Assembly: GCA_016865895.1 (NCBI GenBank)
Contig: VGNY01000005.1
Coordinates: forward strand, 1 to 44,131
Length of the DNA: 44,131 nucleotides
From: Chloroflexota bacterium
Lineage (GTDB): Bacteria; Chloroflexota; Dehalococcoidia; GIF9; UBA5629
Direction of reading: 5' to 3'
Shown: positions 1,020 to 44,131 of the stretch, in pieces
Layout: the number at the start of each line of letters is the position of its first letter
Numbering within the stretch: position 1 is the stretch's first letter
The notes under the pieces: generated by a model
The model's input: the letters and a program-made list of their open reading frames with translations, nothing else
Told to the model about the DNA's origin: nothing
Database searches by the model: none
Program-made: the position numbers and the translations under genes

Positions 1020-4000
1020 ATGAAAACCAAATATCCTAGTATCTTCGGTCTCCTGGTTGCGCTCATGCTGGTAGCCAGCTTTGTCGTGCCTACCAACTTT
1101 ATGAGCCCGAAACCAGTCGAGGCCGACCCTGGCATCTGCAAATGGGACGTGCTGCCAACGCCCTTTTACAGACCGCTTGTGTATGATGTTTACCCTGGTC
1201 TTGAGATACAAGACATGGCGGTAGCCGGCGACGGCGCAACCATATACGCGGCTGTCAGAATGGTGCTGAGCGCTACGGGCGCAAGCCTTACACTTCAAGC
1301 TACCGGCTGCACTCTTACTGCAGGAAACTCCTATACCAACCTTTTCGTCACCACCACGGGCGGCATTTTCTGGACGGCATCCAAGAGCATGTCGCTGCTC
1401 AATGCAGTAAAGGCCTACCTTGGAGCTTGCCCTGACGACGGTGATACGAATATCTACCATGTGGCAGTGGCACCGGATAATCCCAAGTATATCGCTGTCA
1501 CCTCGGACGACCCCGACACGCCGGGCGCTGGTCCCCAGGCGGTGTGGGTAAGCCCTGACGGCGGCTCCACCTGGGACTACGCTAGTGGCCTGGGCCTTGG
1601 AGGCACCACTGCGACCATCCGCGCCATTGACATCTCGATGGATTACGGCGGCAAGCGCGATATTGCCGTTGGCACCACCACCTGCACTCCTGGCGGTGAC
1701 CTTCGTGTGGTTCAGTCCACCGGCTTCGGCGGCTGGAAAGCTCAGAATACTACCACGAGTTTAGGAGCTGCTGTTGACATCTTCGCCGTGAAGTTCTCAC
1801 CCACCTACGCGAGCGATGCATCAATAGCTGTGGTCTATGCCGATGCAAGTAATACCTATTACAACATCGGCCTGCGCGACATCGATAAGAACACAACTGA
1901 TACCTGGGCATTCACCCGCACCGAGGTAGAAGTTACCACTCCAGGAAACCCGAGTACTTCACCCAGCACTTCGGAACTGAACAAGGCCGATTTGGAGCTG
2001 CCCAGTGACTTCTCGGGGCAGGCGGCTTCGCTGCGCCGCGCCTACATCAGCACCGATGCCTATATTGATGGAACTACCACAAAAGAAAACCAGCGCGACG
2101 GCATCTTCCGCGTTGACGACAATGTTGTCTACGAGCTGATGGCTACTTATTCCAATGCCAGGAAGTCCATCTACAGCATCGCCTACTTCGGCACCTATGC
2201 CTCGGGCAAGTTGATTGCTGGCGAGCGAATGGGCTATCCGTGCACGGCTACTGTGCCCACCTGGTTCACCGATTCGCCGACCACCTGCCCCATACCCTGC
2301 TGGTATCCGGCGCTTAAGCCAACCACCGGCGCTGCTACCCTGAGCGCGTGTCCATCACCGCTGGGGCTACAGTCTGGTGTCGGCGCTGCTCTCGTCGGCT
2401 GGAGAGCTGACGGACAGCTAGCTTATGCTGCCACCGGTGCCAACGCAATAGATACGACTGATGACTGGTACCTACGGTGGCTCGATGCCTACACCGCGTA
2501 TGACGAGTCAGCCTTCGCCATCAGCCGCAACAACGGCGAGACGTGGAACCAGCTCGCCCTAATCGATACAGGTATCACCAAGTTCACCGACGTGGCACCA
2601 GCGGCGGACTGCAAGACCATCTACCTGGCTTCGCACAACGCGGGCCCGGGTTATAAGTGCAGAGACTTTGACAGCGTGTGGCGCACCAGCTCCAATTCCG
2701 AAGTGGTGTCACCGCTGCCAGCAATGCCTGCCGGCACCTACTGGGAGAGGGTACTTACCCGCCCGCTTGATACCACCTGCAACACGACCCAGTCCACAGT
2801 GGGTCTGCTGAGACTGGTGCCTTACTGCGCTGACCCCTCTGGCCAAATCGTCGCCTGGGCAGCACAGGGCAAAAAGGCACAGGCGTGGTCACCGGACTAC
2901 GGCGATTACTGGGCAACCATCACGCCGAGAGACGAGATTCAGGACTTCTGCTTTGAGTCCAAGACGGTAATGTATAACCTGTCCGCCGGCGGACTAGTGC
3001 AGAAGATGCCCTACACCGGCACTGCCTGGTCAACCACGCTGCCCAGCGTTGACACGGTAGTATACGGCGCTCACAGCATTGCCGCTTATCCTGAAGGCAA
3101 GGTGCTCGTCGGCGCCAGTGTCGACTACCATACAGCCCTGTACGCCGCTTCCTACTCGGGCAACTTCAATACCGACAGCCCATCCTTCACCGTCATGGTG
3201 CTGGCGGGAAAGACAAACCACACAGGCAGTGTCCATCCCGTCTTCCATCCCAACTTCAAAGAAAACAACCTCATCTTCATCAATGATACCGGTTCTACCG
3301 GCGGCTCGGTGTACCGCAACAACCCCGCCGCCCAGCAGAGGTGGGTTGACACCGACATGATGGACGCCATCAACGGCGCTGTGGGCTGCATGGCTCCACA
3401 CCGAGACCCACAGTACGGCCTGGTTGTGTCCTTCACCGGCGAAGCACTGTATTCAGCACACTTTGATTCCAGTGATAATAGCACGGGTGTCTGCCGCACT
3501 CTGGATTTGCTTGAAGGTATGCCCAAGCCGGGCATGGCCTGGGACTGCCTGAATGTCTTCGCCAATCCTCCAGCAGCACCGAACCAAGTGCGCTTCACCC
3601 TCGAGCCGACATCGCTCAAAGCCTGCGGCTGCTGCACGCTGGAAACCGATACCACGCTGTACGCCATTGATGACCAGAACTACAGTGCAACATATAGACG
3701 AGGCCTGGTCTGGGGCTTCACCGACTGCATGGCTAAGAAGGGCCCAGCTCTGATAACCGCGGATAAGTCGCTCATCGGCTGCGACCCGGTTTCCGGCCGA
3801 GCCCAGGAAGTCAACCTGTGCTGGGAGCAGCTCTGCATCGCCGATGCCTATGACATCGAGATTGCCAAGAAGAAGGACTTCAGTCTCGTGATTGTCGACC
3901 TCGCCCCCGAGGGTGAGTGCTACGGCTTCATGCCGGTTGACGTCCTCAAGCCGTGTGCCTACTTCCCGGCTGGCGGACAGGCAGCAGGCTCAACACTCTC

Positions 4001-4622
4001 CATCCTGTACGAGGACGAGGACTTAAAGAAGTCCACCATTAGGACGTTGGGAGAGGGCTCAGCTATAGGTCGCTACGGCAACCTGGAATGCGGTCACACC
4101 TACTACTGGCGCGTCAAGGTTCGCGAGTGTGCTACCGGCCAGTGGATCCGCAGCCCGTGGTCTGAGGTGAGGAGCTTCACCGTCAAGGCAGGGCTCCCCG
4201 TAAGCACTCCGTACTACGGACCGCAACTGCTGGCGCCCAACAACGGCTGTCTTGGCTGTCCGGTAAAGCCGGCATCCTTCTCCTGGTCACCGTTCAAGGA
4301 GACCACGAAGTACAAGTTCCAACTGGCCAAGGATGCGGCTATGACCCAGATAGTCAAAGAGGCTGAAGTGACCACCACCGCCTTCGAGTACGATGGCACG
4401 CTGGATTACAGCTCCAACTACTTCTGGCGGATAATGGCTCTCGAGCCAGCGCCGAGCGACTGGTCAGCTACCTTCAGTTTCCAGACTGAGGCGGCACCAG
4501 CACCACCAGCAGCACCAGAAAAACCGGCTCCAACCCCGTTCTGGGTCTGGGTGGTGATTGCCATCGGTGCTATCCTGGTGATAGTCACTCTGGTCCTCAT
4601 CTTCAAGACTCGCCGGGTGTAA
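1020..4622 (+). CDS. Large secreted Asp-box (BNR) surface protein with C-terminal membrane anchor
   Basis: 1200 aa. An N-terminal signal peptide (hydrophobic about residues 8-25) is followed by a long extracellular region with Asp-box motifs typical of sialidase/BNR beta-propellers (SPDGGSTW near 178, SRNNGETW near 502, SPDYGDYW near 624). Two fibronectin-III-like modules follow (about 919-1056 and 1063-1158), each with a YYWRV/YFWRI core, then a Pro/Ala linker and one transmembrane helix (about 1175-1195) ending in KTRRV. The protein is probably held at the cell surface by the C-terminal helix and may act as S-layer or adhesin. No catalytic residues of sialidases are evident, so no enzyme activity is claimed. 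It has about 29 cysteines, unusually many for an exported protein. GGAGGT at 1011-1016 supports ATG 1020. The C-terminal third is closely related at DNA level to the gene at 9904. Confidence 0.85.
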   Translation: MKTKYPSIFGLLVALMLVASFVVPTNFMSPKPVEADPGICKWDVLPTPFYRPLVYDVYPGLEIQDMAVAGDGATIYAAVRMVLSATGASLTLQATGCTLTAGNSYTNLFVTTTGGIFWTASKSMSLLNAVKAYLGACPDDGDTNIYHVAVAPDNPKYIAVTSDDPDTPGAGPQAVWVSPDGGSTWDYASGLGLGGTTATIRAIDISMDYGGKRDIAVGTTTCTPGGDLRVVQSTGFGGWKAQNTTTSLGAAVDIFAVKFSPTYASDASIAVVYADASNTYYNIGLRDIDKNTTDTWAFTRTEVEVTTPGNPSTSPSTSELNKADLELPSDFSGQAASLRRAYISTDAYIDGTTTKENQRDGIFRVDDNVVYELMATYSNARKSIYSIAYFGTYASGKLIAGERMGYPCTATVPTWFTDSPTTCPIPCWYPALKPTTGAATLSACPSPLGLQSGVGAALVGWRADGQLAYAATGANAIDTTDDWYLRWLDAYTAYDESAFAISRNNGETWNQLALIDTGITKFTDVAPAADCKTIYLASHNAGPGYKCRDFDSVWRTSSNSEVVSPLPAMPAGTYWERVLTRPLDTTCNTTQSTVGLLRLVPYCADPSGQIVAWAAQGKKAQAWSPDYGDYWATITPRDEIQDFCFESKTVMYNLSAGGLVQKMPYTGTAWSTTLPSVDTVVYGAHSIAAYPEGKVLVGASVDYHTALYAASYSGNFNTDSPSFTVMVLAGKTNHTGSVHPVFHPNFKENNLIFINDTGSTGGSVYRNNPAAQQRWVDTDMMDAINGAVGCMAPHRDPQYGLVVSFTGEALYSAHFDSSDNSTGVCRTLDLLEGMPKPGMAWDCLNVFANPPAAPNQVRFTLEPTSLKACGCCTLETDTTLYAIDDQNYSATYRRGLVWGFTDCMAKKGPALITADKSLIGCDPVSGRAQEVNLCWEQLCIADAYDIEIAKKKDFSLVIVDLAPEGECYGFMPVDVLKPCAYFPAGGQAAGSTLSILYEDEDLKKSTIRTLGEGSAIGRYGNLECGHTYYWRVKVRECATGQWIRSPWSEVRSFTVKAGLPVSTPYYGPQLLAPNNGCLGCPVKPASFSWSPFKETTKYKFQLAKDAAMTQIVKEAEVTTTAFEYDGTLDYSSNYFWRIMALEPAPSDWSATFSFQTEAAPAPPAAPEKPAPTPFWVWVVIAIGAILVIVTLVLIFKTRRV

Positions 4623-4649
4623 GCCCAACCGAACCTGCTTGAGATAAGC

Positions 4650-4684
4650 AATCCCGTCCCGAGAAATCGGGACGGGATTTTTTA
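4650..4684 (+). terminator. Rho-independent terminator
   Basis: A perfect 13-bp stem (AATCCCGTCCCGA at 4650-4662, TCGGGACGGGATT at 4667-4679) has a GAAA loop and runs into TTTTTT. It lies 28 bases after the stop of the surface-protein gene and is the clearest terminator in the window. Confidence 0.95.
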
Positions 4685-4694
4685 TTCCACCCCA

Positions 4695-4845
4695 CAGTAT
4701 AAATCCTAAATCCCAAGCACCAAGCTCTAAACAAATTCAAAACACCAAATTCTAATGACCGAAACCGTTACCTGTTTTGAATTTGGAGAATTGGGATTTT
4801 GAGACTGTTTAGGATTTGGAACTTAGGATTTGAGATTTCCCCCGG
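4695..4845. repeat. AT-rich dispersed repeat (AAATCCTAAATCC family)
   Basis: An imperfect large inverted repeat. The left half uses TCCTAAATCCCAAG, TCTAAACAAATTC and CCAAATTCTAATGACC. The right half uses the complementary forms GAATTTGGAGAATTGGG and GTTTAGGATTTGG. It has the same composition as 77-130 and 13664-13850, and no coding potential was seen. Confidence 0.7.
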
Positions 4846-4851
4846 CGGTGT

Positions 4852-4880
4852 TTGACACTACCTGTCACCACCTTTATAAT
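4852..4880 (+). promoter_or_regulatory. Consensus sigma-70-type promoter
   Basis: TTGACA (4852-4857), a 17-bp spacer and TATAAT (4875-4880) match both consensus boxes exactly. Transcription would start near 4887. The -35 box includes a TTG that could be misread as the start codon of the following gene, so it fixes the start at 4900. Confidence 0.93.
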
Positions 4881-4899
4881 GCCCGAAAAGGGGGGCGAC

Positions 4900-6099
4900 A
4901 TGACTAAATTCAACTGGTTTCCGACTTTCATCGCAGTATTGCTGGCTGTGTTAATTCTGCCAATCGCCGGCTGCATCACCATCGTCAGACAGCCGGCAGA
5001 GCAACCACCGCCGCCACCGCCCCCGCCGGTTATCAATTCCTTCACCATCAGCCCGGAGACCATCAGCGCCGGGCAGCGAACGACTTTGAGCTGGAAGGTC
5101 ACCGGCGCTACTGCCGTGACCATAGAACCTGAAATCGGCGAGGTGGGCGCAGGCGGCTCACTGCTGCTATCACCGGCTGCCACTATTACCTATAACCTGA
5201 CAGCCAGCAACGAATCCGGCAGCACCACCGGTTCCGTCACCGTAACAGTTATGGTATCAACAGATAAGCCAGATTTGGTGATTACCGACATCTGGCTCAC
5301 CGGAGCAGTGGTTAACTACAAGATAAAAAATCAGGGCAACGCCGCTGCCAAGCCAACATGGACATATTTTTACGTCAACAACCTTAAGAAAGCCGAGGGC
5401 TATGTGGATATACTGGCTGCGGGCGAGGAAAAAACCGAATCTTTTTCTAATCTTGACTGGAGATTCCCCGGCGCTGGCGGAGACCCGTCAACAACCATGG
5501 CCCGGTTTGACGTCAGGGCCTGCGCCGACGGTGGCAGCAACATCGAGGAAAGTAGCAAAGACAACAACTGCCTGACTAAAATCTGGGGGCACACGTTTAC
5601 CTACGATTTTGTGAAGAACGCACATCTGGCTAAATGGAGGAGCAGCGCCGGCGATTTGAAATGGCCTATGGTTTCCTATGATAACAAGGGAGCAGCCTAC
5701 CTGCTCTATGACACCGTGGTGATGTGCCCGGAACCGGTGAGCAACGGCTGGATACAGGGCAGGTTTGCCGACTTTTATATCAAATACTACGGACAAGAAA
5801 CCACCAGCCGGGAGCTCGTGGTACCAGAAAATGCCAGGTTCACCGCCCGGGTGGGCTTCGAGCCGGGCAAGGTGTCCACCGATGGCGTCAGAGTTGCCCT
5901 GGGCTACCTGGATGCCACTGGCAGCGTGGTGCTGCTGCCCAAGATGGATGTTTATAGCGACGGGACAATGCGGCCTTACGAAGTTGATTTAAGCAGCCTG
6001 GCGGGCAAGAAGACCGAGTTCATCCTCTGGGTTGAAGCCAAGGACTCGCCACAGGGAGACTGCGTCAGGTGGGCGGAGTCGAAGATAGTTCAGGAATAG
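4900..6099 (+). CDS. Secreted lipoprotein with Ig-like and CARDB domains
   Basis: 399 aa. ATG 4900 is chosen because the upstream in-frame TTG at 4852 is the -35 box. The N-terminus is a lipoprotein signal with lipobox PIAGC (lipidated Cys25), followed by a run of eight prolines. An Ig-like domain follows (about 45-125; FTISPETISAGQ start, LTASNESG late strands), then a CARDB cell-adhesion-type domain (about 130-230; DLVITDIW and VNYKIKNQGNA motifs). The C-terminal 160 residues are beta-rich and I do not recognise them. The protein probably sits on the outer face of the membrane and could bind carbohydrate or neighbouring surface proteins; that role is inference. It has its own consensus promoter and lies between two giant surface-protein genes. 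Confidence 0.85.
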   Translation: MTKFNWFPTFIAVLLAVLILPIAGCITIVRQPAEQPPPPPPPPVINSFTISPETISAGQRTTLSWKVTGATAVTIEPEIGEVGAGGSLLLSPAATITYNLTASNESGSTTGSVTVTVMVSTDKPDLVITDIWLTGAVVNYKIKNQGNAAAKPTWTYFYVNNLKKAEGYVDILAAGEEKTESFSNLDWRFPGAGGDPSTTMARFDVRACADGGSNIEESSKDNNCLTKIWGHTFTYDFVKNAHLAKWRSSAGDLKWPMVSYDNKGAAYLLYDTVVMCPEPVSNGWIQGRFADFYIKYYGQETTSRELVVPENARFTARVGFEPGKVSTDGVRVALGYLDATGSVVLLPKMDVYSDGTMRPYEVDLSSLAGKKTEFILWVEAKDSPQGDCVRWAESKIVQE

Positions 6100-6112
6100 C
6101 CAGCCCAGCCAC

Positions 6113-6240
6113 CGATATAGTGTCCCGCTTTGCGGGATAGTGCGACCAATGTAGTGCGACCTTTTAAGGTCGCCCTGGGTGAGGTTAAAGCATTTGGGCG
6201 AGGCTAAAGCCTCGCATTACATCTGTCATTTTGATTTTTA
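6113..6240 (+). repeat. A-type and D-type repeats abutting the next start codon
   Basis: The stretch contains GTCCCGCTTTGCGGGATA, then a TGTAGTGCGACC / AAGGTCGCCC palindrome, then GGCGAGGCTAAAGCCTCGC, and ends in a D-type terminus (CTGTCATTTTGATTTTTA) directly against the ATG at 6241. Confidence 0.75.
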
Positions 6241-9200
6241 ATGAAGCTTTGTATTTTCCTCCTGGTTGTCTTGTTATCGGGCTCATTGCTCATGCCGGCG
6301 GCACCAGTCTCAGCCGACGTCCCAGATGCTACCATCCTGAAATGGGCACTAATTGATACCCCGGACAGTATGTCCGACAGGAACGATATCCGCTCTCCCT
6401 GTGAGGTTAACGCCATAGCACTGGCTTCAGATGGCAAGACCATATATGCCATTGACATACCTAACGCAGCTCCAGCTCCAGTAGCCAATCCGGGGATATG
6501 GAAGAGCAGCGACAGCGGCATCACCTGGAGCCCTAAACCCAGCCAACATCTCGCCCGAACCACGCCCAGCCCGACCTTCCCGGTAATGGATATTGCCCTG
6601 GCTCCCGACGACCCAAACCTGCTAGCCGCCGTCTGCCTTAATAATGCCGGCACACTACGCCATGAAGTTTACCTCTCCGACGATGGCGGTGCTTGCTGGG
6701 CCTATGCCGGTGCTATTCCCTGGGTCTACAGCGGTGACGAGCAAATCGGCGATATAGCCATCTCTCCGGGCTATAACTTAAACGGCAAGCTGGTGCACGA
6801 CATCATCATCGGCAGTCGCCAGCCCGATGATGGCAACGGTCAAGGCGAGATTTACATCTTAAGCTACCCCGGCTTCAGCGGCTGGAAGCCTCAGGGCTTC
6901 ACCTGCGGTGACGTTATCGTCGTACGAGCTTCACCAAACTACACCACCGACTTCACGCTGGTGGTCATGGCCTCCACCACGCAGCGGACATATATCTCGC
7001 TGGGTTATCGGGATATAGCGGCTAATACCTGCGACTGGAATAAAGACAGCGGCTGGCCGGTGGAGATGTGCGAACCGAGCCAGAGCGGCGGCAGCGGCGA
7101 GGACAAAATCATCAGCGGAGACATGGCACTGCCCGGCGATTTCATCGGCACCTCAACAAACGGACGCCTGATTTTCGCCGCCTATGACTCCAACGGAACC
7201 GCCTTCGGCAGCAGCCAAAGGCTGGATGATGTCTACCGCCTGGAGAACACCAGAGTTAGCCGGCTGAAGCTGCCCGGGGCTGGCAGCAATGCCAGGATAA
7301 GCACGGTTGCCTATACAGGAGATAAAGCAGCCGGCAAGCTACTGGCAGGCGAGGTTGCCGCTAACCTTGCCGAGGCTGCCGCCAGTGTCTGGGTATGCCT
7401 TGACCCATTATCGTCCTGCCCCACCTGGAGGCGAGCGCTGAAACAGCCTACTGGCGGTGGCCAGGGTGGTTATGCCAATGCCCAGCTTGTCTGGTCGCCT
7501 GACGGCTCAACCGCCTTCTGCGGCACTGGCTCGGGCAATCGGGATACGCCACAGAAATGGGCAGACCCAACCAATTCCGCCTGGAATAGCCAAAGCCTGG
7601 ACGAATCAGCAGTCTCCATAACTGTGGACGATGGTGAATCCTGGAACCAGGTCGGGCTTATTGACACCAGAATCAGCCGATTTAGAAGCGTGGCTGTGGC
7701 TGGGGATGAATCAACCCTTTACCTGGCGTCGGTCAATGACGACGGCTTCGACAGCCTGTGGCGCAGCCGCAGTCCCATACTGGGAGAAATCTGGCAGCGA
7801 GTGATGTGTTTCAGCGGGGAGTCGCCCATACTGAGGCTGGCTCAAGATGCCAGAAACGGGGCGAATTTGTTCTGGGGCGACCAAGGCACTGATAGAGCCC
7901 GCAGCTCCACAGACTACGGTCAAACCTGGCATGATTGTCTGCCCAACATCATCATACAGGACATGGCGGCACCGGATAGCCAAACGTTGTATATACTCCA
8001 GGGCAACGGGGAGGTGCGCCGCGGCAATCACACTAACGGCTGGATATGGGCAAAGAGGGTGGACACCGGCCTGAACACAGGGCATACCATCGCCGTTCAA
8101 AACGATACCGTACTGGTTGGCGCTGCGGCATACGAGCCATCACCGGTAGCCTATTCGGCTGACGGCAGCCAGACCTGGACAAAGATAACTGAAAAGACGC
8201 CAAGCACCGGCAATCGCCATATAGCCTTTGATGCCTACTTCGAGACAAACGGGATTATCTACGTGGCTGATGACGCCGGCGGTATATACCGCTGGAGTCT
8301 GGGCAAAAGTCAGAGCTGGGATGACCTGTCACCGCCCAATCATAGCTTCTACGGCATAGCTAGCGGCAGCCGAGGCACTCTCTATGGAGCTTATAGCCTG
8401 CCGGAAAGCGGCATTGACCGGGCGCTGTATCCCAGAAGCGGCATTCCCAAGCCAAGTGTCTACTGGGACTCGCTGACAACTGGCCTGTCCAGCAACGTTC
8501 AGTTCAGCATTGAGCCCAATTCAATTACTATTTCCCAGAGTAGCCTGTGGGCAATTGACGCTCGTGACTATGACCCGGCAAACGACGAAGGCTGCCTCTG
8601 GGCATTTGCCGATACGCTGGCCAGGGCCGGGCCAAGGCTGATTGAGCCGAACCATGGGACAGCGCTTGGTTGTGACCCGGTGAGTGGCAGGAACTTGGAT
8701 GTTGACCTGATGTGGGAGCAGCTTTCCCTGGCTGAAGCCTACGAGATTGAGATAGCTAAAGATGCAGCTTTCAGCCTTCGAATCACCGAAGCTGAGCCCG
8801 TGACCAGCCCGTACTATGAGCCGGCTATAATCACCAGCCCGGCCTTTAGAATTGCGCCCGGACTGCTGCCAGAGGCCAACGCCACCTACTACTGGCGGGT
8901 GAGGGTGCGGCAGGCGGCTACAGGTCAGGTAATTCGCAGCCTGTGGTCGGAAGAGGGCAGCTTCAGCATCAAGGCCGGCTTCCGAGTGGTCAGCCCGTAT
9001 ATCGGAGCACAAGCCTTGAAGCCAAGCCACGGTGCCAGCGACACCCCGGTGTCATCAATAGCCTTCTCCTGGACACCGTTCCAGGACGCAACCGAGTACC
9101 AGTTCGTCCTGGCCAGAGATTCAGCTCTGAGGGACATGCTTGTCCAGGAGGCGACGACAACTACAGCCTACAAATATAGTGGCAGGTTGGACTATGACAG

Positions 9201-9417
9201 CAGCTACTTCTGGAAGGTCATAGCTATGAAGCCGGTGGTTAGTGAGGGCAGCCCGGTATTCAGTTTCGCCACCATAGCCGAACCATCACCTCAGGTGCCA
9301 CCACTACCGTACAATCAAATCCTGCGCTGGTTGCAAGCCAGCGTCCTGGTGAATATATTTGGATTCATCATACTGGCAGCTATGGTCATACTGTGGCGCG
9401 GTCAGCGGAGGTTATAA
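6241..9417 (+). CDS. Large secreted Asp-box (BNR) surface protein, paralogue of the 1020 gene
   Basis: 1058 aa. A signal peptide (about residues 1-25, cleavage near VSA) leads into a propeller-like region with at least five Asp-box motifs (SSDSGITW near 88, SDDGGACW near 146, VDDGESW near 462, STDYGQTW near 556, SADGSQTW near 639). The two fibronectin-III-like modules shared with the 1020 and 9904 proteins come next (about 811-915 and 919-1010), then a transmembrane helix (about 1033-1051) and the tail WRGQRRL. It has about 14 cysteines, half as many as its larger paralogue. No Shine-Dalgarno is visible: a dispersed repeat runs up to the start codon. The next ATG (6292) would destroy the signal peptide, so 6241 is kept. 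Confidence 0.85.
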   Translation: MKLCIFLLVVLLSGSLLMPAAPVSADVPDATILKWALIDTPDSMSDRNDIRSPCEVNAIALASDGKTIYAIDIPNAAPAPVANPGIWKSSDSGITWSPKPSQHLARTTPSPTFPVMDIALAPDDPNLLAAVCLNNAGTLRHEVYLSDDGGACWAYAGAIPWVYSGDEQIGDIAISPGYNLNGKLVHDIIIGSRQPDDGNGQGEIYILSYPGFSGWKPQGFTCGDVIVVRASPNYTTDFTLVVMASTTQRTYISLGYRDIAANTCDWNKDSGWPVEMCEPSQSGGSGEDKIISGDMALPGDFIGTSTNGRLIFAAYDSNGTAFGSSQRLDDVYRLENTRVSRLKLPGAGSNARISTVAYTGDKAAGKLLAGEVAANLAEAAASVWVCLDPLSSCPTWRRALKQPTGGGQGGYANAQLVWSPDGSTAFCGTGSGNRDTPQKWADPTNSAWNSQSLDESAVSITVDDGESWNQVGLIDTRISRFRSVAVAGDESTLYLASVNDDGFDSLWRSRSPILGEIWQRVMCFSGESPILRLAQDARNGANLFWGDQGTDRARSSTDYGQTWHDCLPNIIIQDMAAPDSQTLYILQGNGEVRRGNHTNGWIWAKRVDTGLNTGHTIAVQNDTVLVGAAAYEPSPVAYSADGSQTWTKITEKTPSTGNRHIAFDAYFETNGIIYVADDAGGIYRWSLGKSQSWDDLSPPNHSFYGIASGSRGTLYGAYSLPESGIDRALYPRSGIPKPSVYWDSLTTGLSSNVQFSIEPNSITISQSSLWAIDARDYDPANDEGCLWAFADTLARAGPRLIEPNHGTALGCDPVSGRNLDVDLMWEQLSLAEAYEIEIAKDAAFSLRITEAEPVTSPYYEPAIITSPAFRIAPGLLPEANATYYWRVRVRQAATGQVIRSLWSEEGSFSIKAGFRVVSPYIGAQALKPSHGASDTPVSSIAFSWTPFQDATEYQFVLARDSALRDMLVQEATTTTAYKYSGRLDYDSSYFWKVIAMKPVVSEGSPVFSFATIAEPSPQVPPLPYNQILRWLQASVLVNIFGFIILAAMVILWRGQRRL

Positions 9418-18508: not shown

Positions 18509-19873
18509 TCAGCCGGTTAATCGGCCTCTAGCCTTTCTCGGCACACACTTGTTTGCCGCTTGGATAACCAAGGCTAGACTCATCAAGTAGTCGTCGTGAC
18601 CATCGCTAGGGTCAACAAAGAAGTTCAAGGTTTGGTTTGGCCTATAGACTGATTTGGCTTTCTCCAGCTCAAATATAAGCTCCCTGTAATCAGTTGAGCC
18701 ATCATGCTTATACAGCTTTAGCCTGCCTGAGTTAATGGCAGCTAGCAGGTCAAAACCGGCGTCTGACTTTGTTTTCTGGGTGAACTTGAATGGGACCACC
18801 TTGCCGCCCAGGGGCTTGCGCAGGAAGCTGGTGACAGGCTCGCCGATGCCTGTGGCATCAGTAACAATTCGGCTACAATGCCAGACATTCTTGAGTATGT
18901 CCACCATCTGGGGATAGAGTTCAGAGTGGTTCTTGCCCACCCAGGCATACTGCTCTACCACACGTATCAGCGGCTCCTTAGCCGCCTCGGTAGTATCTGG
19001 TATAACTTCGGCGATAGTTATGACAGTGGCATCTCTGCCCGGCCGAGTTAAAACCTCATCTTCAAGCTGCTCCGATTCACCAGCAAAATCAATACCAGCT
19101 ACATAAATCCTATGTTCCTGAGGTTGATGAAACCTGGAATGGTCTCCTCGGAGCTGGGCGATTTGCTGGCTGGTCAGAAAACCACCTCCACCCCGGAGCG
19201 GCAGCAGCGCATACTGAGTACGGAATAATGGATGGGCTTCGCCAAGCCGCTCCAGCTCGGACTCGACAAAAGCCTTATAAGCTGGATTATACCTGGCCAC
19301 ATCCTGCCAGTCATACCTGAAATGGCGCTTGATGCCATCTTTTTTCTCTAATTCCAGGTTGGTCTGCTTAACTTCTTCTAACAGTGTAGTGTCATCCCAG
19401 GTTGTGCCATAGTGGACAGTAGTGGCATTCGATGCCGATGCCATAGGCCTGAATTCCTTGGTGTATTTGTCTTTGTCCACATCCTGAGATTCATCAATCT
19501 CCAAAAGTATGTCAGCGGTGTGGCCAACGACTGAGCTGGATTCATCGGCTGACAGGAACACTTGGCGAGCATTGCCCAGCCTGACCATATAGCCAGCTTC
19601 GGTAAGCCAGATACCGCCAAAGCCGAAATCGTCAAGTCGCTCCTTCAGCCGGCTTATGGAGATAATAGTCTGCGGCTTAAAGGTTGGTGAACATTTGATG
19701 GCATTGCCGCCGGCAGCCATGAACATTGTCAACAACAGCACCTCTAAGTGTGCTGAAAGCTCGTTCTTACCACCCTGTCGGGCTATTTCAACCGAAAATG
19801 TTAAGCCCAGGTCACGCTGGATACTTTCGATTACAGCTTTAGCTACTTCCGCTTGGTATGGACGTAATCTCAT
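18509..19873 (-). CDS. Phage-type terminase large subunit
   Basis: 454 aa from ATG 19873; the longer frame to 19915 reads into a repeat and is rejected. It is a DNA-packaging motor: an N-terminal ATPase with a Walker A-like ARQGGKNE and Walker B LLEIDES, then an RNase H-like nuclease with acidic clusters in AGIDFAGE, IVTDATGIGEP and GHDDYLMSL. All key elements look intact. The start codon follows a D-type repeat with no visible Shine-Dalgarno. Upstream on the same strand are a small terminase-like gene and a short ORF, but no portal, capsid or tail gene is nearby. It could be a domesticated phage fragment or part of an unrecognised packaging or gene-transfer system. Confidence 0.88.
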   Translation of the reverse strand: MRLRPYQAEVAKAVIESIQRDLGLTFSVEIARQGGKNELSAHLEVLLLTMFMAAGGNAIKCSPTFKPQTIISISRLKERLDDFGFGGIWLTEAGYMVRLGNARQVFLSADESSSVVGHTADILLEIDESQDVDKDKYTKEFRPMASASNATTVHYGTTWDDTTLLEEVKQTNLELEKKDGIKRHFRYDWQDVARYNPAYKAFVESELERLGEAHPLFRTQYALLPLRGGGGFLTSQQIAQLRGDHSRFHQPQEHRIYVAGIDFAGESEQLEDEVLTRPGRDATVITIAEVIPDTTEAAKEPLIRVVEQYAWVGKNHSELYPQMVDILKNVWHCSRIVTDATGIGEPVTSFLRKPLGGKVVPFKFTQKTKSDAGFDLLAAINSGRLKLYKHDGSTDYRELIFELEKAKSVYRPNQTLNFFVDPSDGHDDYLMSLALVIQAANKCVPRKARGRLTG

Positions 19874-20040
19874 ATTAAAAATCAAAGGGCAAAATGCGCC
19901 AACTAGTGTAGCCACGACCCTAAAGGGTCGTGGCTACGAGGCTAAAGCCTCGTGGCTAGTGTCATTCTGAGGGAGCCCTTCCGTGGAAGGTCGACCGAAG
20001 AATCTCATAGACCCTTCGCTTCGCTCGGGTGTCATAAAAG
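19874..20040. repeat. D-, A- and B-type repeats inside the terminase cassette
   Basis: A D-type end (AAAAATCAAAGGGCAAAATG) abuts the terminase start codon. It is followed by an A-type palindrome (CACGACCCTAAAGGGTCGTG, CGAGGCTAAAGCCTCG) and a B-type GTCATTCTGAG...GAAGAATCTC unit. Confidence 0.75.
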
Positions 20041-20046
20041 CGTGAT

Positions 20047-20373
20047 TTATCTGACTATCGCCTTTATTCCCAGCGGAATGGCTATCTCGGTGAGCACCCT
20101 GGTGATGGCTTCCTTGAGCGATTTCTTCTGCTCCTTGGTGATGTTGTAGCGAGTCATAACAAGCCGTGAAATAGCATTAGCCATCTTCAGATGAAGGTCA
20201 AACCTCTGGGGCTCTTCCACAATAAGTTCGCGGAGCTTAATACGAAGTATAGCTATTTCCTCATCAATACCGTCTACACCTCTGGCCTCCTCAAGCTTCA
20301 GCTTCTCAGCTTCATCCAGTACCTGGCCGTAGAATCCCGGTTTCTTGCCCTTTGCGGTGCTTTTTCTGGTCAT
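20047..20373 (-). CDS. Probable terminase small subunit-like protein
   Basis: 108 aa from ATG 20373, preceded by GGTGAGAAG. The protein is basic at the N-terminus (RKSTAKGKK) and then helical and charged, with IDEEIAILRIKLRELIVEE and SRLVMTRYNITKEQKKSL. I assign it as a DNA-recognition partner of the terminase by position, size and composition rather than by a diagnostic motif. It lies on the same strand as the large subunit, 173 bases upstream, the gap being filled with repeats. Confidence 0.6.
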   Translation of the reverse strand: MTRKSTAKGKKPGFYGQVLDEAEKLKLEEARGVDGIDEEIAILRIKLRELIVEEPQRFDLHLKMANAISRLVMTRYNITKEQKKSLKEAITRVLTEIAIPLGIKAIVR

Positions 20374-20509
20374 TTTGCTTCTCACCCAAAAGACGTCCTG
20401 CGTTTTCTGGGAACCCGTTTTGCATCGTCTTGATAAGCCCATAAACGAGAACATACGCAGCTAGGTCATACCTTTGCTCGTCTAAAGCCACTTTCAACAA
20501 TTTCCCCAT
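20312..20509 (-). CDS. Small hypothetical protein upstream of the terminase genes
   Basis: About 65 aa from ATG 20509 (MGKLLKVALDEQRYDLAAYV). Its last third overlaps the small terminase gene by 62 bases in another frame. The first 40 residues look like a real helical protein: no repeats and normal composition. No clear Shine-Dalgarno is present. It could be a DNA-binding or adaptor component of the terminase cassette; this is inference from position only. Confidence 0.45.
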   Translation of the reverse strand: MGKLLKVALDEQRYDLAAYVLVYGLIKTMQNGFPENAGRLLGEKQNDQKKHRKGQETGILRPGTG

Positions 20510-38151: not shown

Positions 38152-38883
38152 TCAATGCAGTACCTTGCTCAGGAATAGTTTCGTTCGCTCGTTGTTGGGT
38201 GATGCGAACAATTTGTCGGGTGTGCCCTCTTCGATGATTTGTCCCTCATCCATGAAGATGACGCGGTTGGCAGCAGCACGTGCAAACCCCATCTCGTGCG
38301 AGACCACCACCATAGTCATACCCTCATTAGCCAGCGCTAACATTACATCTAAAACTTCTTTAATCATCTCAGGGTCAAGCGCGCTGGTTGGCTCGTCAAA
38401 TAACATTATCCTGGGATTCATCGCTAGAGCCCGAGCAATTGCCACGCGCTGCTGTTGCCCACCAGAAAGTTGTGCGGGATAATTCTTGGCTTTTTCTGGA
38501 ATGCCCACTTTGGTCAAGAGGTCAAGAGCGATTTTACGGCATTCTTCTTTGGAACGTTTACGTACCACACGCTGAGCCAAGCAGATATTTTCCATCACCA
38601 TCAAATGAGCAAATAAGTTAAACGATTGGAATACCATGCCTACTTCACAGCGAACAGCGTTTATGTTCTCTGCACTGTCCAAAGGAATACTATCAACCAC
38701 AATTTTGCCTGCATCATATTCCTCAAGACGATTGATGCAGCGTAGCAGGGTAGATTTTCCTGACCCCGATGGTCCAACGACAACAACAACCTCACCTTTA
38801 TACACATCAAGATTTACTCCACACAATGCATGAACCTTGCCAAAGTGCTTATGAACATTCTCAACGTGGATAATTGGCTCCAT
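38152..38883 (-). CDS. glnQ: Polar amino-acid ABC transporter, ATPase
   Basis: 243 aa. Complete ABC ATPase: Walker [11 protein letters not shown]-loop VFQSFNLF, signature LSGGQQQR, Walker [13 protein letters not shown] and H-loop VSHEMGFA. It is the GlnQ/HisP class by its length and by the [11 protein letters not shown] segment. It lies 6 bases downstream of the permease gene and powers import of an amino acid. Confidence 0.95.
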
Positions 38884-38889
38884 AATTCC

Positions 38890-39717
38890 CTATCTTTCAA
38901 AGCGAGACTTTTTCTCGGCCCAGGCTACCATACGAGCTGAAAATAAAGTCATTACCAGATACAACAAGGCTACCATTGTCCAAACCTCAATAGGATTAAA
39001 ATGTGTGGCCATGAATTCGCGCCCCCGTCGGGTCATATCTGCCACAGCCACCACACTGACAAGGGAAGAATCTTTGAGCAAAGCGATAAACTCATTGCCT
39101 ACTGGCGGTAAAATCACACGGAACGCCTGAGGCAAGACCACATATCGCATGGTCTGTACGTACGACATACCAAGGCTACGAGCAGCTTCTACCTGCCCCT
39201 TGGGAACACTCTGGATGCCAGCACGATAAATCTCACTCATATAAGCTCCGTAGCAAACTACCAGCCCGACGACAGCGATGAAAATTGCATTCACTTGATA
39301 GTTAGCCAAGGTAGAGATATTAAGCCAGCGGCCTATCTGCTGGATTACCACCGGGAAAGCAAAATACCACCAGATTAACTGTACCAGGAGAGGAATGCCC
39401 CTTACCAACTCAACATAGAGCGATGAAATGCCATAAACAATCCGATTTTGTGACAGCCGCCCCAGGCCCCCAAACATGCCTACAATCAAAGTAAATATAA
39501 ACGCCGTTACGGTGACCAAAACGGTTACCACAAGGCCATCGCGCACGAAAAGCAAAATGTTCCAAAAAGGGTCCGATTTTGCCACAATCAACAGTACTGC
39601 CAACCCAACCACCAACACCACCAACCACCACCAAGCGTCAATACGAGCGCTCGGCCCAGCACTAGGGATGTTGACTGGCTCTTTTTCTGTAGGTGTGGAT
39701 TTTGGCCGTAACTCCAT
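38890..39717 (-). CDS. Polar amino-acid ABC transporter, permease
   Basis: 275 aa. HisM/GlnP type: an N-terminal extension with one extra helix (WWWLVVLVVGLAVLLIVA) and about five further helices. The EAA loop reads VEAARSLGMSYVQTMRYVVL, and LVRGIPLLVQL is the family's entry segment. Probably forms a homodimer in the membrane. Confidence 0.95.
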   Translation of the reverse strand: MELRPKSTPTEKEPVNIPSAGPSARIDAWWWLVVLVVGLAVLLIVAKSDPFWNILLFVRDGLVVTVLVTVTAFIFTLIVGMFGGLGRLSQNRIVYGISSLYVELVRGIPLLVQLIWWYFAFPVVIQQIGRWLNISTLANYQVNAIFIAVVGLVVCYGAYMSEIYRAGIQSVPKGQVEAARSLGMSYVQTMRYVVLPQAFRVILPPVGNEFIALLKDSSLVSVVAVADMTRRGREFMATHFNPIEVWTMVALLYLVMTLFSARMVAWAEKKSRFER

Positions 39718-39779
39718 ACGACCTCTCGAAATAGACCACGAGGTCCCTAGAAATATACTAAAATTTAACTTTCAGCTGC

Positions 39780-40526
39780 TTATTGACCTGAAAGCCATTT
39801 CTTGGTTAATTTTTCAATTAACCCTTCATCTTGGACAGCTTTAAGCCCTGCGTTGATTTTCGCCAACAACTCTGGCTTGGTCTTGCAGACAGCAATCCCG
39901 TAATATTCCTCTGTAAAGATATCGCCAACCGCCTTCAGTTTATCAGGGTTTTTGCCAACATATCCCAAAGCGAGGGGATTATCGGCGACAACCGCATCAA
40001 TCTGTCCATTCATTAAATCCTGAAATGCCAAACCAATATCATCATAAGTCTTCAGAGTGACATCTTTCATTTCACCCACTTCTATAGCGCCGGTTGTCCC
40101 AATTTGGGCACCAACACGCTTACCTGTTAGATTCTCTTTACCCTTGATATCTGTATTATCTTTGCGGACTGTGACAATCTGCCCAGCTCCGAAGTAGGGA
40201 TTAGAGAAAAGCATGTCCTTCTTGCGCTCTTCGGTGATTGTAATGGATGAAATAGCAGCATCGTATTGGCATTGCGCAATCCCAGCCAGAAGTGGGTCAA
40301 ATCCCACGTTTACATATTTAATCTCTAAGCCCGCTTTTTCGGCGATTGCGTTTAAAACGTCAATATCAAACCCTTCAATCTTCTTGGTTTTCTCATTCAC
40401 ATACTCGAAGGGTGGCCAGGTGGCATCTGTAGCCACAAGGACCGCTGTTGCCTTCGGGGCACAGCCAGGCAGCACCAGACTCACCGCTAACATCCCCACA
40501 AGGATACACCAAAACAGACGCTTCAT
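39780..40526 (-). CDS. Polar amino-acid ABC transporter, substrate-binding lipoprotein
   Basis: 248 aa. Lipobox LPGC (Cys22), then the SBP family 3 fold: DATWPPFEYVNEKTKKIEGF, FDIDVLNAIAEK, the binding-site region ISSITITEERKKDMLFSNPY and DAVVADNPLAL. The pattern fits glutamine, glutamate, histidine or arginine; the exact amino acid cannot be told from sequence. GGAGGT precedes ATG 40526. First gene of the transporter operon. Confidence 0.95.
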   Translation of the reverse strand: MKRLFWCILVGMLAVSLVLPGCAPKATAVLVATDATWPPFEYVNEKTKKIEGFDIDVLNAIAEKAGLEIKYVNVGFDPLLAGIAQCQYDAAISSITITEERKKDMLFSNPYFGAGQIVTVRKDNTDIKGKENLTGKRVGAQIGTTGAIEVGEMKDVTLKTYDDIGLAFQDLMNGQIDAVVADNPLALGYVGKNPDKLKAVGDIFTEEYYGIAVCKTKPELLAKINAGLKAVQDEGLIEKLTKKWLSGQ

Positions 40527-40861: not shown

Positions 40862-40870
40862 TGGTATAAT
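40862..40870 (+). promoter_or_regulatory. Extended -10 promoter (TGGTATAAT) of the kinase/RuBisCO-like operon
   Basis: TG-G-TATAAT is a full-consensus extended -10, with start near 40877 and ATG 40891. No Shine-Dalgarno is obvious in the 14-nt leader. Confidence 0.75.
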
Positions 40871-40890
40871 AAGCTCTGGCGTACAGATAA

Positions 40891-42432
40891 ATGGCCAAGT
40901 ACATAATCGCCCATGATGTGGGCACAAGTGGCAATAAGGCAGTTCTGGTAGATGCCGAGGGGCGCGTCCACGGCAAATGCTTCGAACCTTATCAGACCTA
41001 CTACCCCAACCCCGGTTGGGCGGAGCAGGAGCCTGCAGACTGGTGGAACGCAATCACGCGGACGACAAAGCTTCTTCTTCAGCAGGCTGGGGTGTCACCA
41101 GGCGATGTTTTATGCATCACCTATGCCACACAGATGTTGGGCATCATTCCTATGGATTCGCGGGAAGGATTGCTAAGGCGCGCCATAATCTGGCTTGACA
41201 ACAGGGCTTGCGAGCAGGCGGAGCGGTTGATGAGAAAATTCCTGGGCCCTCGTGTTTTCGCGCTGATTGCCGGGGCTACATTAGGTGGCAAGGATGGCCT
41301 GCCGAAATTGCTCTGGCTAAAGGGGGAGGAACCTGACATTTATAACAAGATGTGCTGCTTTCTTGATGTCGCCGGTTATCTCTTCTGCCGCAGCACTGGC
41401 AACATGGTTATAGAATGGACTGGCGCCTCTGTCTTTGGACTTGACCTCAAAAAGAAGGTATGGCTTAATAGCATATTTCGCTATATTGGACTTGACCCGG
41501 CGAAGTTTCCTCCCCTGGTGCGGCCTATTGATAAAGTCGGAGAGTTAACGCGTGAAGCAGCCGCTGACTGTGGCTTGCTGCAGGGCACGCCGGTTATCGC
41601 CGGTGCCGGGGATGCTCCATGTGCCGCTGTAGGCTCTGGTGCTGTAGGTGAGGGCGAAGGTCATGTCTATCTCGGCATATCCGGATGGGTAGGCGTAGTC
41701 ACAGAACGTATATTGCAGGGCAAATGTGGAGCAGCCACGATTCACTCGGCTGACCCGAGTAAGACATTTCTATTTGCCGAAACGGAAGCTGCCGGTGGTT
41801 GTATCCAGTGGATTGCCAACGAGTTCTACAAAGTTGAAAAGAAGGACCCGAAAATCCCCAATGTCTATGCTCTTATGGATGATGAGGTTGCTAAAATCCC
41901 ACCGGGTTCCAATTACCTGCTCTTTACCCCCTGGATTTACGGAGAGAGAGCCCCTATAGACGACTGCTATGTTCGCGCCACCTTTCTCAACTTGAGTGCC
42001 GAGCATACACGCGAGGACATGCTGCGTGCTGTCTATGAGGGTGTGGCTTATAATATCAGATGGATAGTGGATATTGTGGAGAAGGAATTTAAATTCCCTC
42101 TACCACATCTCAGAGTGATAGGTGGTGGTGCCAAGGGCAAGCCCTGGATGCAGATTTTAGCTGATGTCACGCACAGAAAGGTTGAGACTGTCTGTGACCC
42201 GCAGGAGGCAGGGGCAGTAGGGGCAGCGTTGGTGGCAGCAGTTGGTCTTGGCATTTACCCAGATTTTGAATCGCTGAGGAAGGTGGTTAAGGTTGAGGCA
42301 GTGTTTGAGCCGCATCCGGAGAATGCGGAGATTTATGACTCGCTGTTTCATTCGTATCAAGAGGTTTATAGTAACCTGCGTGGTTTCTATAGGAGACTTA
42401 ATGAAAAGAGATTCACTGAAGCAGGCCCATGA
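40891..42432 (+). CDS. FGGY-family sugar kinase, xylulokinase-like
   Basis: 513 aa. The two actin-like domains of FGGY kinases are intact: phosphate-1 motif DVGTSGNKAVL, the substrate segment NPGWAEQEPADWW, WLDNRACEQAE, the catalytic Asp in AGAGDAPCAAVGSG (about residue 241), and the adenosine motif GGGAKGKPWMQILADV. It phosphorylates a sugar or sugar acid with ATP. It is closest to xylulokinase-like members, but residues of the sugar pocket (WTGAS, TPWIYGERAP) do not allow an exact substrate call. The partner gene is a RuBisCO-like protein, so the product may be its substrate or precursor. Confidence 0.9.
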   Translation: MAKYIIAHDVGTSGNKAVLVDAEGRVHGKCFEPYQTYYPNPGWAEQEPADWWNAITRTTKLLLQQAGVSPGDVLCITYATQMLGIIPMDSREGLLRRAIIWLDNRACEQAERLMRKFLGPRVFALIAGATLGGKDGLPKLLWLKGEEPDIYNKMCCFLDVAGYLFCRSTGNMVIEWTGASVFGLDLKKKVWLNSIFRYIGLDPAKFPPLVRPIDKVGELTREAAADCGLLQGTPVIAGAGDAPCAAVGSGAVGEGEGHVYLGISGWVGVVTERILQGKCGAATIHSADPSKTFLFAETEAAGGCIQWIANEFYKVEKKDPKIPNVYALMDDEVAKIPPGSNYLLFTPWIYGERAPIDDCYVRATFLNLSAEHTREDMLRAVYEGVAYNIRWIVDIVEKEFKFPLPHLRVIGGGAKGKPWMQILADVTHRKVETVCDPQEAGAVGAALVAAVGLGIYPDFESLRKVVKVEAVFEPHPENAEIYDSLFHSYQEVYSNLRGFYRRLNEKRFTEAGP

Positions 42433-42444
42433 AGGAGGTGTCTA

Positions 42445-42679
42445 TCAACTCCCGCCAGTCATTGCGAGCCCCTCGCTTTTTGTCACTCTGAAAGTAGCGA
42501 AGAATCTCCATTTATCTCTCCCTCCGAGATTCTTCGGTCGTCCCGATTCCATCGGGACTCCTTCAGAATGACAGAGAAGGCAACCGGGATTGCTACGGCA
42601 CTCCGTGCCTAGCAATGACAGAATAAAAAGGGCTCCTCACGATGACAAACGAGGTAATTATTGAACAATCTGAATTCTC
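42445..42679. repeat. B-type repeat element inserted between kinase and RuBisCO-like genes
   Basis: Inverted GTCATTGCGAG / GTCACTCTGAAAG / GAGATTCTTCGGTC / CAGAATGACAG / GCAATGACAG units with a TCCCGATTCCATCGGGA palindrome. The block is bounded by a 13-bp direct repeat, AAGGAGGTGTCTA, at 42432-42444 and 42680-42692. Confidence 0.75.
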
Positions 42680-42693
42680 AAGGAGGTGTCTAG

Positions 42694-44004
42694 ATGAATA
42701 GAGACGAGATTTTGAGCCTTCCCATAGCTTTACCAGATGGCGTAGATTATGATGAATATATTATCAGTACGTATCTGGTTTCCTACCCGGCGGCGCTCCC
42801 CGTCCCGCTGATTGCCCCCATGCTGGCTGTGGAGCAGAGCACAGGCACCTGGGTAGCAGTGCCTGGCGAAACCGAGGAGGTGCGCCGTCAGCATATCGCC
42901 AAGGTAATCGGCGTTTATGAGATGCCGGATTACGAAGCCACGGTGCCGCCCAATTTGCAGGACAGGAAATGGTTTGTCCAGGTGGCTTACCCGGAGGTCA
43001 ACATCGGCGAGCAGATACCTATGCTCCTGACTACCGTGGTGGGCAATATCTCCATGGGTGGCGATATCAAATTATTGGATGTACGTTTCCCAGAGAAATA
43101 TGTTGCCGGCTTCAAGGGACCGAAATTCGGCATCGATGGGGTGAGAGAGGTTCTAGGAGTACCAAAACGACCTCTCCTGAACAACATGATAAAGCCATGC
43201 ACTGGCTACACGTGTGAAGTTGGCGCCGAATTGTTCCGAAAAGCAGCGGCTGGCGGCTGCGATATTGTCAAGGATGATGAGCTTATAGCCGATGCCTCGT
43301 TCAATTCAGCGTTAGAGCGTGTCAAAACGTATATGAAGATTGAGAAGCAGGTCTATGAGGAGACGGGTGAACATACCCTGTACACTGTGAACATAACGGA
43401 TTCAATACCCAAGGTCTTCGAAAATGCCAAGCGTGCCGTGGAGTTGGGCTGTAATGCGCTGATGATAAACTACCTCGCTGTCGGTTTTCCAGTGATGCAG
43501 GCGATTGCTGAAGACCTCAGCATCAATGTTCCTATCCTTGGCCATATGGACGTGGCTGGCGCTTTTTACATGTCACCTTATCATGGCATAAGCTCTCACC
43601 TCGTCTTGGGCAAACTGCCACGTCTTGCCGGTGCCGATGTTGTGGTTATTCCTGCACCGTATGGAAAAGCGCCCGTGATTGACTACAAGTTCAAAAATGC
43701 TGCCAGAAATCTATCATTCCCACTGTATAATCTTAAGCCGACATTCCCTATGGCCTCTGGCGGAATTACCCCGTCTATGGTACCGCAGGTGATGATGGCT
43801 CTGGGCAATGACATCGTGATAGGTTCTGGAGGCGGCATTCATGCACATCCTCAAGGCCCAATCGCTGGTGGGAAAGCATTCCGGCAGGCAATCGATGCCA
43901 CCATGCAGGGCATCCCTGTGGCGGAGTATGCCAAAGACCATCAGGAGCTGGCGATTGCACTTAAAGAATGGGTTGACCCATTCAGCAAGGGCATTAGAAT
44001 CTAA
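42694..44004 (+). CDS. RuBisCO-like protein, form IV
   Basis: 436 aa. RuBisCO large-chain fold. Relative to spinach numbering it keeps E60 (E47), N123 (N118), K175 (K167), carbamylated K201 with D203/E204 (KDDE, 193-196), H294 (H284), loop-6 K334 (K325), S379 (S355) and the GGG phosphate loop (379-381). It replaces K177 with Cys (KPCTG), R295 with Met and H327 with Val. The lost residues include those binding the second phosphate, so it should not carboxylate ribulose bisphosphate. Enolisation or decarboxylation of a monophosphate is more likely. A strong AAGGAGGTG precedes ATG 42694. It is the likely second gene of an operon with the FGGY kinase. Confidence 0.92.
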   Translation: MNRDEILSLPIALPDGVDYDEYIISTYLVSYPAALPVPLIAPMLAVEQSTGTWVAVPGETEEVRRQHIAKVIGVYEMPDYEATVPPNLQDRKWFVQVAYPEVNIGEQIPMLLTTVVGNISMGGDIKLLDVRFPEKYVAGFKGPKFGIDGVREVLGVPKRPLLNNMIKPCTGYTCEVGAELFRKAAAGGCDIVKDDELIADASFNSALERVKTYMKIEKQVYEETGEHTLYTVNITDSIPKVFENAKRAVELGCNALMINYLAVGFPVMQAIAEDLSINVPILGHMDVAGAFYMSPYHGISSHLVLGKLPRLAGADVVVIPAPYGKAPVIDYKFKNAARNLSFPLYNLKPTFPMASGGITPSMVPQVMMALGNDIVIGSGGGIHAHPQGPIAGGKAFRQAIDATMQGIPVAEYAKDHQELAIALKEWVDPFSKGIRI

Positions 44005-44040
44005 CCCGCATTTCCCATATCAAACTGATATTTAGGCGGG
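44005..44040 (+). other. Hairpin after the RuBisCO-like gene
   Basis: CCCGC (44005-44009) pairs with GCGGG (44036-44040) and ATATCA (44017-44022) with TGATAT (44026-44031). Only TTGT follows, so it is at best a weak terminator. Confidence 0.4.
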
Positions 44041-44046
44041 TTGTCG

Positions 44047-44055
44047 TGGTAAAAT
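44047..44055 (+). promoter_or_regulatory. Extended -10 promoter (TGGTAAAAT)
   Basis: TG-G-TAAAAT, identical to the box at 474-482, about 57 bases before the ATG of the last gene. Confidence 0.55.
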
Positions 44056-44111
44056 AGCTTCAAAAGCTCGCAGGTTAACCTTCGCGGTAAAGGGCTTATT
44101 GGAGGAACCCA

Positions 44112-44131
44112 ATGGGTGAAAAATTTCAGGA
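44112..44131 (+). CDS. Start of an unknown gene, cut by the window end
   Basis: ATG 44112 with GGAGG at 44101-44105 opens a frame reading MGEKFQ before the window ends. Too little is left for a function. It may be the next gene of the kinase/RuBisCO-like pathway. Confidence 0.7.

Follow-up and report, generated by a model that had tools for sequence, protein, structure and literature searches.

The kinase and RuBisCO-like genes at the contig end

The window analysed here, 44,131 nucleotides long, is one entire contig (C5) of a 2.6-Mb genome in 306 contigs (G000) from an uncultured Dehalococcoidia-type bacterium, so that the end of the window is also the end of the contig. A sequence-only reading of this stretch had claimed a gene for an FGGY sugar kinase followed by one for a RuBisCO-like protein (RLP), and both open reading frames are present on the plus strand and confirmed by Pfam. 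The first (positions 40891..42432) encodes an FGGY-family carbohydrate kinase of 513 amino acids, with both the FGGY_N (E 4e-49, 168 bits) and the FGGY_C domain (E 9e-28, 97.8 bits). Its top NCBIfam match is XylB (TIGR01312), at a score of 321.1 bits that stays below the cut-off of 380.25, and its closest solved structure is the xylulose kinase 2itm. The genome holds no second close copy of the kinase, the next match having 25% identity.

The second gene (42694..44004) encodes an RLP of 436 amino acids, the only RuBisCO-family gene in the genome, which was assigned to an uncharacterised clade by Pfam, NCBIfam, alignment, tree and an AlphaFold2 model. Matches to RuBisCO_large (E 2e-47, 162.3 bits against a cut-off of 30.1) and RuBisCO_large_N (E 5e-10, 40.1 bits against a cut-off of 20.7), together with the residue losses described below, place it in the RuBisCO superfamily as a form IV protein. 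Near relatives of the RLP come from Dehalococcoidia/Chloroflexi metagenome-assembled genomes.

The two genes are separated by 261 bp, mostly taken up by a dispersed repeat, while in most relatives the gap spans from a few to approximately 130 bp. The repeat-like element (42445..42679) has 42 matches in its own genome including itself (41 others), most of them partial. An exact repeat search showed it to be flanked by two copies of a 13-bp direct repeat, AAGGAGGTGTCTA, the first at the kinase stop codon (42432..42444) and the second (42680..42692, plus strand) resembling a ribosome-binding site for the RLP gene (AAGGAGGTGTCTAG-ATG). Since a dispersed repeat sits between two exact 13-bp copies, we infer that the element is an insertion with target-site duplication.

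On the 3' side of the RLP stop codon, folding predicts a hairpin with a CCCGC/GCGGG stem (44005..44040, plus strand, -10.8 kcal/mol), a possible terminator, albeit one lacking a long T run. Behind it, approximately 108 bp past the RLP stop, starts a plus-strand gene that is cut by the contig end (44112..44131; first codons MGEKFQ...). The suggestion that this gene continues the pathway found no support: its DNA gave no good match among the fetched relatives, and it was rejected as a pathway gene, as nothing ties it to the module.

A separate clade with a near-invariant active site

The position of the RLP was assessed in an IQ-TREE tree of 75 proteins, in which 47 clade rows fell on one side of a branch with support of 99/95 against the other named groups and 91/94 for the 47 rows alone; the deep root of this tree is unresolved, several of its rows are long-branched, and its sampling omits the R. 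rubrum RLP and the Photo-type (Chlorobium) RLP. With good support, the RLP clade thus stands apart from MtnW, OiaX, the 3qfw/DeepYkr type and form I. The MtnW proteins, including the solved ones, form a group of their own (support 100/99), and the sister branch of the clade consists of three Chloroflexota proteins (L122-L124). The profile scores gave the same picture, with the RLP missing both MtnW models (TIGR03332, 341.6 against 513.6 bits; NF007095, 378.2 against 409 bits), the OiaX model (NF042437, 191 bits against a cut-off of 700) and the form III RuBisCO model (TIGR03326, 270.7 bits against a cut-off of 497.45). Placement inside a characterised clade, which would have argued against novelty, was accordingly found neither in the tree nor in the scores. 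The AlphaFold2 model (pLDDT 90.7) has MtnW as its top PDB match, at 37% identity and a Foldseek TM-score of 0.86 by query length.

The active site was read from an alignment of form I, MtnW, OiaX-type and 3qfw-type proteins with the 47 clade rows, two of which (L065 and L119) are identical in sequence. In form I numbering, the RLP carries E60, T65, W66, N123, K175, C177, K201, D203, E204, H294, M295, A298, V327, K334, S379, G381, G403 and G404; the earlier reading of a retained K175, carbamylation triad (K201/D203/E204) and K334, with Cys177, Met295 and Val327, was borne out in every position. The signature in the protein's own numbering is E47, T52, W53, N118, K167, C169, K193, D195, E196, H284, M285, V318, K325, S355, G357, G379 and G380, and K167, C169, K193, D195, E196, H284, V318 and K325 are invariant in a 33-sequence alignment. 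In form I numbering again, 45 of the 47 clade rows keep the signature, with variation confined to position 298 (A, T or S) and a single G at 379 (L066); the departures are L108 (L295, G379) and L120 (S177, L295, S298, G379). The signature hardly varies among members from bacteria and archaea, including a protein (L189, genome G577) that we take to be Archaeoglobus fulgidus AF1587, as it sits where that gene is expected.

In RuBisCO, the two phosphates of the substrate are held by the P1 and the P2 ligands, the latter including R295 and H327, while E60, N123 and K334 lie on the CO2 side. Four residues for RuBP carboxylation are lost in the window RLP (K177C, R295M, H298A and H327V), and the same positions are replaced in every clade member. 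The alignment shows a retained P1 phosphate site and a missing P2 site in all members, and the near-invariance of the signature among the clade rows indicates that the P1 ligands and CO2-side residues have remained while the P2 ligands are gone.

The same positions separate the clade from its characterised relatives. MtnW (2,3-diketo-5-methylthiopentyl-1-phosphate enolase, YkrW clade) shares with the RLP the fold, K175, the carbamylation triad, the mono-phosphate site and an apolar P2 end, but has G60, K123, P295, L327 and S334 in place of E60, N123, M295, V327 and K334; Lys123 of the solved MtnW proteins is Asn in all clade members. OiaX (3-oxo-isoapionate-4-phosphate decarboxylase) likewise keeps K175, the triad and K334, but differs in having R295 and F66. 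The Rhodopseudomonas palustris RLP1-type (3qfw) and DeepYkr proteins share N123, E60 and an apolar P2 end, whereas H204 and R334, seen in both 3qfw and L112, are E204 and K334 in the RLP, their residue 295 is Pro, and the T65/W66 positions have no aligned residues; the relative L112 of this type adjoins mtnK and mtnA. Finally, the sister-branch RLPs of the L122 type, whose neighbours include DUF4432 and class II aldolase genes, share C177 and the nearby aldolase, but lack the conserved active-site signature (G60; T, N or V295; R, A or P334) and have other neighbours. An RLP with an epimerase-domain neighbour has been described from a Hakuba actinobacterium (PMC7325909), and this neighbour is perhaps of the same kind as those of the L122 type.

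Linked genes in relatives

The neighbourhood survey covered 80 of the 209 RLP loci found, 69 of the 80 having at least 1.6 kb upstream. In 58 of these 69 testable loci, no more than 2.5 kb lay between the kinase and the RLP, a pairing far beyond chance, which was seen in Chloroflexota, Cryosericota/Caldisericota, Bacillota, Actinomycetota, Acidobacteriota, Myxococcota and some archaea. An absence of linkage in relatives, which would have spoken against the proposed operon, was thus not what the loci showed, although several archaeal members (L094, L095, L097 and L099-L102) have the RLP with no kinase nearby. In the Archaeoglobales, the RLP is paired with a dehydrogenase gene; AF1587, a clade member by sequence, adjoins this same gene, but the A. 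fulgidus kinase homologue (39% identity, at 1183497-1185005) is found elsewhere in the genome. The known kinase-linked loci were described in the earlier reading as using kinases of other families, and the fetched loci agree, as the MtnW locus has mtnK and the OiaX locus a four-carbon acid sugar kinase. MtnW is thus linked to a kinase gene as the RLP is, but of a different family, and OiaX shares an operon with a sugar-type kinase.

The usual third gene encodes either a saccharopine-dehydrogenase-like protein (Pfam Sacchrp_dh_NADP), which follows the RLP in near relatives, or a PLP aminotransferase, the latter being a GSA-aminomutase-like class III enzyme or another class III enzyme, sometimes accompanied by a HisC-like one. 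Across the 80 loci, the partner was the dehydrogenase in 33, the GSA-like aminotransferase in 14 and the other class III aminotransferase in 8, with rarer combinations of class III and HisC-like (2) or class III and dehydrogenase (1), and none seen in 22. A comparison of 35 genomes, with the dehydrogenase counted as present at 48% identity or above, showed that the dehydrogenase and a PLP partner at the locus rarely coexist (both in 2, dehydrogenase only in 17, PLP partner only in 10, neither in 6; Fisher p 0.003), and the two exceptions (G432 and G449) have the dehydrogenase in a dehydrogenase-kinase pair away from the RLP locus. Dehydrogenase-kinase pairs apart from the RLP occur at L143, L144, L146, L147 and L148, and HisC-like-kinase pairs at L202 and L207. 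The dehydrogenase and the aminotransferase thus look like alternatives at the locus, an alternation that would point to amine chemistry. As the dehydrogenase is only distant kin of carboxyspermidine dehydrogenase, its activity on amines is a putative one. The homologue in the genome studied here is on contig C64. A PLP decarboxylase gene adjoins the kinase in Archaeoglobales (L209-L211), an observation made weak by the convergent orientation.

Two further genes recur around the module. A class II aldolase is present at five RLP loci (L060, L082, L083, L093 and L106) and adjoins the kinase at L203, and at a threshold of at least 70% identity it was found in just 6 of the 22 RLP-containing genomes of the family (p 0.16). 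An FLVCR-like transporter, which matches FLVCR1 best (E 6e-28) and, among solved entries, one with the name choline/ethanolamine transporter, is present at L035, L060 and L106, while at L229 the RLP, an aminotransferase and the transporter are contiguous in that order. Within the family, the transporter occurs in 18 of 22 genomes with the RLP (one of the 18, G026, being a fragment) and in none of the 8 without it (p 8e-5), and by genus in 8 of 9 against 0 of 7 (p 0.0014), both values being uncorrected for relatedness. Because the pattern follows genera, this co-occurrence is not independent evidence. In the genome studied here, the aldolase and the transporter lie approximately 4 kb apart on contig C23. 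Glycerol-3-phosphate-oxidase-like genes were seen in a few cases, near the module at L104 and L107 and in the same set at L090.

A possible pathway and its alternatives

The RLP represents an uncharacterised subfamily with a conserved and apparently undescribed gene module that occurs across anaerobic bacteria and archaea, and the kinase-RLP pair would form the core of a conserved pathway. No paper joining a RuBisCO-like protein with an FGGY kinase or a saccharopine dehydrogenase was found, within an incomplete coverage of the literature. To our knowledge, no enzyme from the clade has been assayed. The route probably handles a small amine-bearing or sugar-like compound, and the alternation of third genes and the FLVCR-like transporter point to an amine-bearing substrate or product at least as much as to a sugar or sugar acid.

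A tentative scheme, to which we give somewhat less than even confidence, is that the kinase yields a keto compound with a single phosphate, which the RLP enolises or isomerises, and that the enzyme for amine conversion belongs to the same pathway. The kinase would phosphorylate the terminal hydroxyl of a small keto compound to give a 2-keto-1-phosphate, whose single phosphate the RLP would bind at its conserved P1 site. Using a carbamylated K193 (K201), D195/E196 to hold Mg2+, and K167 (K175) as the catalytic lysine, the RLP may form an enediolate and then tautomerise or isomerise it, with no carboxylation. The far end of the substrate would carry no phosphate and is probably apolar, because the P2 ligands R295 and H327 are now Met and Val. 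The dehydrogenase or aminotransferase would interconvert carbonyl and amine, either before the kinase or after the RLP, and the aldolase may cleave a ketose phosphate. The linked transporter and aldolase tip the balance slightly towards a catabolic or salvage direction.

The direction could be reversed, with the module building an amino alcohol or amino-sugar phosphate and the aminotransferase or dehydrogenase serving as a late aminating step. The variety of amine-type enzymes alternating at the locus would suit such a role, as would the up-regulation of AF1587 that is reported for A. fulgidus on H2/CO2 with thiosulfate (PMC3949148), but we consider it unlikely, as the transporter that follows the RLP and aminotransferase at L229 and the aldolase linkage in several lineages fit breakdown or salvage better. 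Just as unlikely, in our estimation, is an OiaX-like decarboxylase, transcarboxylase or carboxylase acting on a phosphorylated sugar or keto acid, with the FGGY enzyme replacing the four-carbon acid sugar kinase. The retained E60, N123 and K334, invariant in the clade, changed in MtnW and in the case of K334 kept in the OiaX type, suit a (de)carboxylase no less than an isomerase, and the class II aldolase at L106 has 3-oxo-tetronate 4-phosphate decarboxylase as its second-best match, under the cut-off. However, Met295 and W66 of the clade contrast with R295 and F66 of the OiaX type, OiaX stands apart on the tree and its model is far from reached (191 against 700 bits), and no acid-sugar kinase was recognised beside the RLP at the loci examined.

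A variant of methionine or 5-deoxyribose salvage, with 5-methylthioribulose-1-phosphate or a relative as substrate of the RLP in the manner of MtnW or the R. rubrum-type isomerase, is more doubtful still. MtnW is the nearest solved relative (37-38% identity), and the substrates known for that branch, keto-1-phosphates, have an apolar far end; yet the MtnW cut-offs are missed, Lys123 is replaced, and the loci examined showed no other recognisable mtn genes. MtnA above its cut-off is missing from the genome studied here and from the RLP-containing G004, G027 and G028, while it is present in G012, G013, G022, G024 and G029, which have no RLP; several of all these genomes are incomplete. A salvage route dependent on MtnA was rejected, as MtnA does not track the RLP. 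A chance adjacency of the two genes, or an ordinary xylulokinase as the kinase, is very improbable: XylB is the best NCBIfam match of the kinase and the two genes are apart in some archaea, but this has to be set against the linkage over several phyla, the XylB shortfall (321 against 380 bits) and the distance to the next kinase in the genome. Least credible is a true CO2-fixing RuBisCO. The carbamylation triad, K175, K334, N123 and E60 are kept, and a transcriptome paper describes AF1587 as an up-regulated RuBisCO (PMC3949148), but the replacement of K177, R295, H298 and H327 in every member and the low form III score (270.7 against 497) led us to reject an active RuBisCO on residues and scores.

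The kinase-RLP module may, at a boldness that keeps this reading doubtful, represent an unknown pathway of anaerobic bacteria and archaea, in which an enzyme of RuBisCO fold would perform a new reaction on an amine-derived keto-phosphate supplied by the kinase; (de)carboxylation would be possible, as the CO2-handling residues are retained. Few reactions of RuBisCO-like proteins are known, and they bear on the origin of RuBisCO. A study of Dehalococcoidia describes RLP function as incompletely understood (PMC11650866), and for the relatives of an RLP from a Wood-Ljungdahl actinobacterium the function has been given as unknown (PMC7325909). A near-fixed signature over bacteria and archaea, together with few linked genes, means that the reaction should be findable with few assays. 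The clade signature argues against AF1587 as a CO2-fixing RuBisCO, and the clade may likewise bear on the RuBisCO matches in Dehalococcoidia metagenomes.

Surroundings of the kinase gene

The spacer between the FGGY-family kinase gene and the gene for the RuBisCO-like protein (RLP) holds a dispersed repeat (window 42433-42690) with 42 matches in its own genome, counting itself, the longer of which show 75-78% identity. Beside the kinase, and divergent from it, lies a putative ABC transporter of polar amino-acid type (window 38152-40526, - strand), made up, judging by its sequence, of an ATPase, a permease and a binding protein; no recurrence of this transporter as a neighbour was seen at the other RLP loci.

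Redox and dehydrogenase genes at related loci

A Pyr_redox_2-type protein and a DUF1667-type gene were found close to the conserved kinase-RLP gene pair in a Dehalococcoidia MAG and Methanolliviera (loci L090 and L104/L107), the Pfam search behind these assignments having covered only L104 among the three loci. Two further Chloroflexota RLPs, outside the clade of the window RLP (L121 7760-13670 and L126 8250-14214), were both accompanied by FGGY kinases and E1-type dehydrogenase subunits, with Pfam E1_dh run on L121 only; a class II aldolase is also present in L126, farther along.

Other genes in the window

Judged from sequence alone, window 18509-20454 (- strand) probably encodes a phage terminase large subunit-like protein and a small neighbour. 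On the same basis, window 1020-9417 encodes a pair of large proteins, 1200 and 1058 aa long, that look secreted and whose C-terminal parts appear alike.
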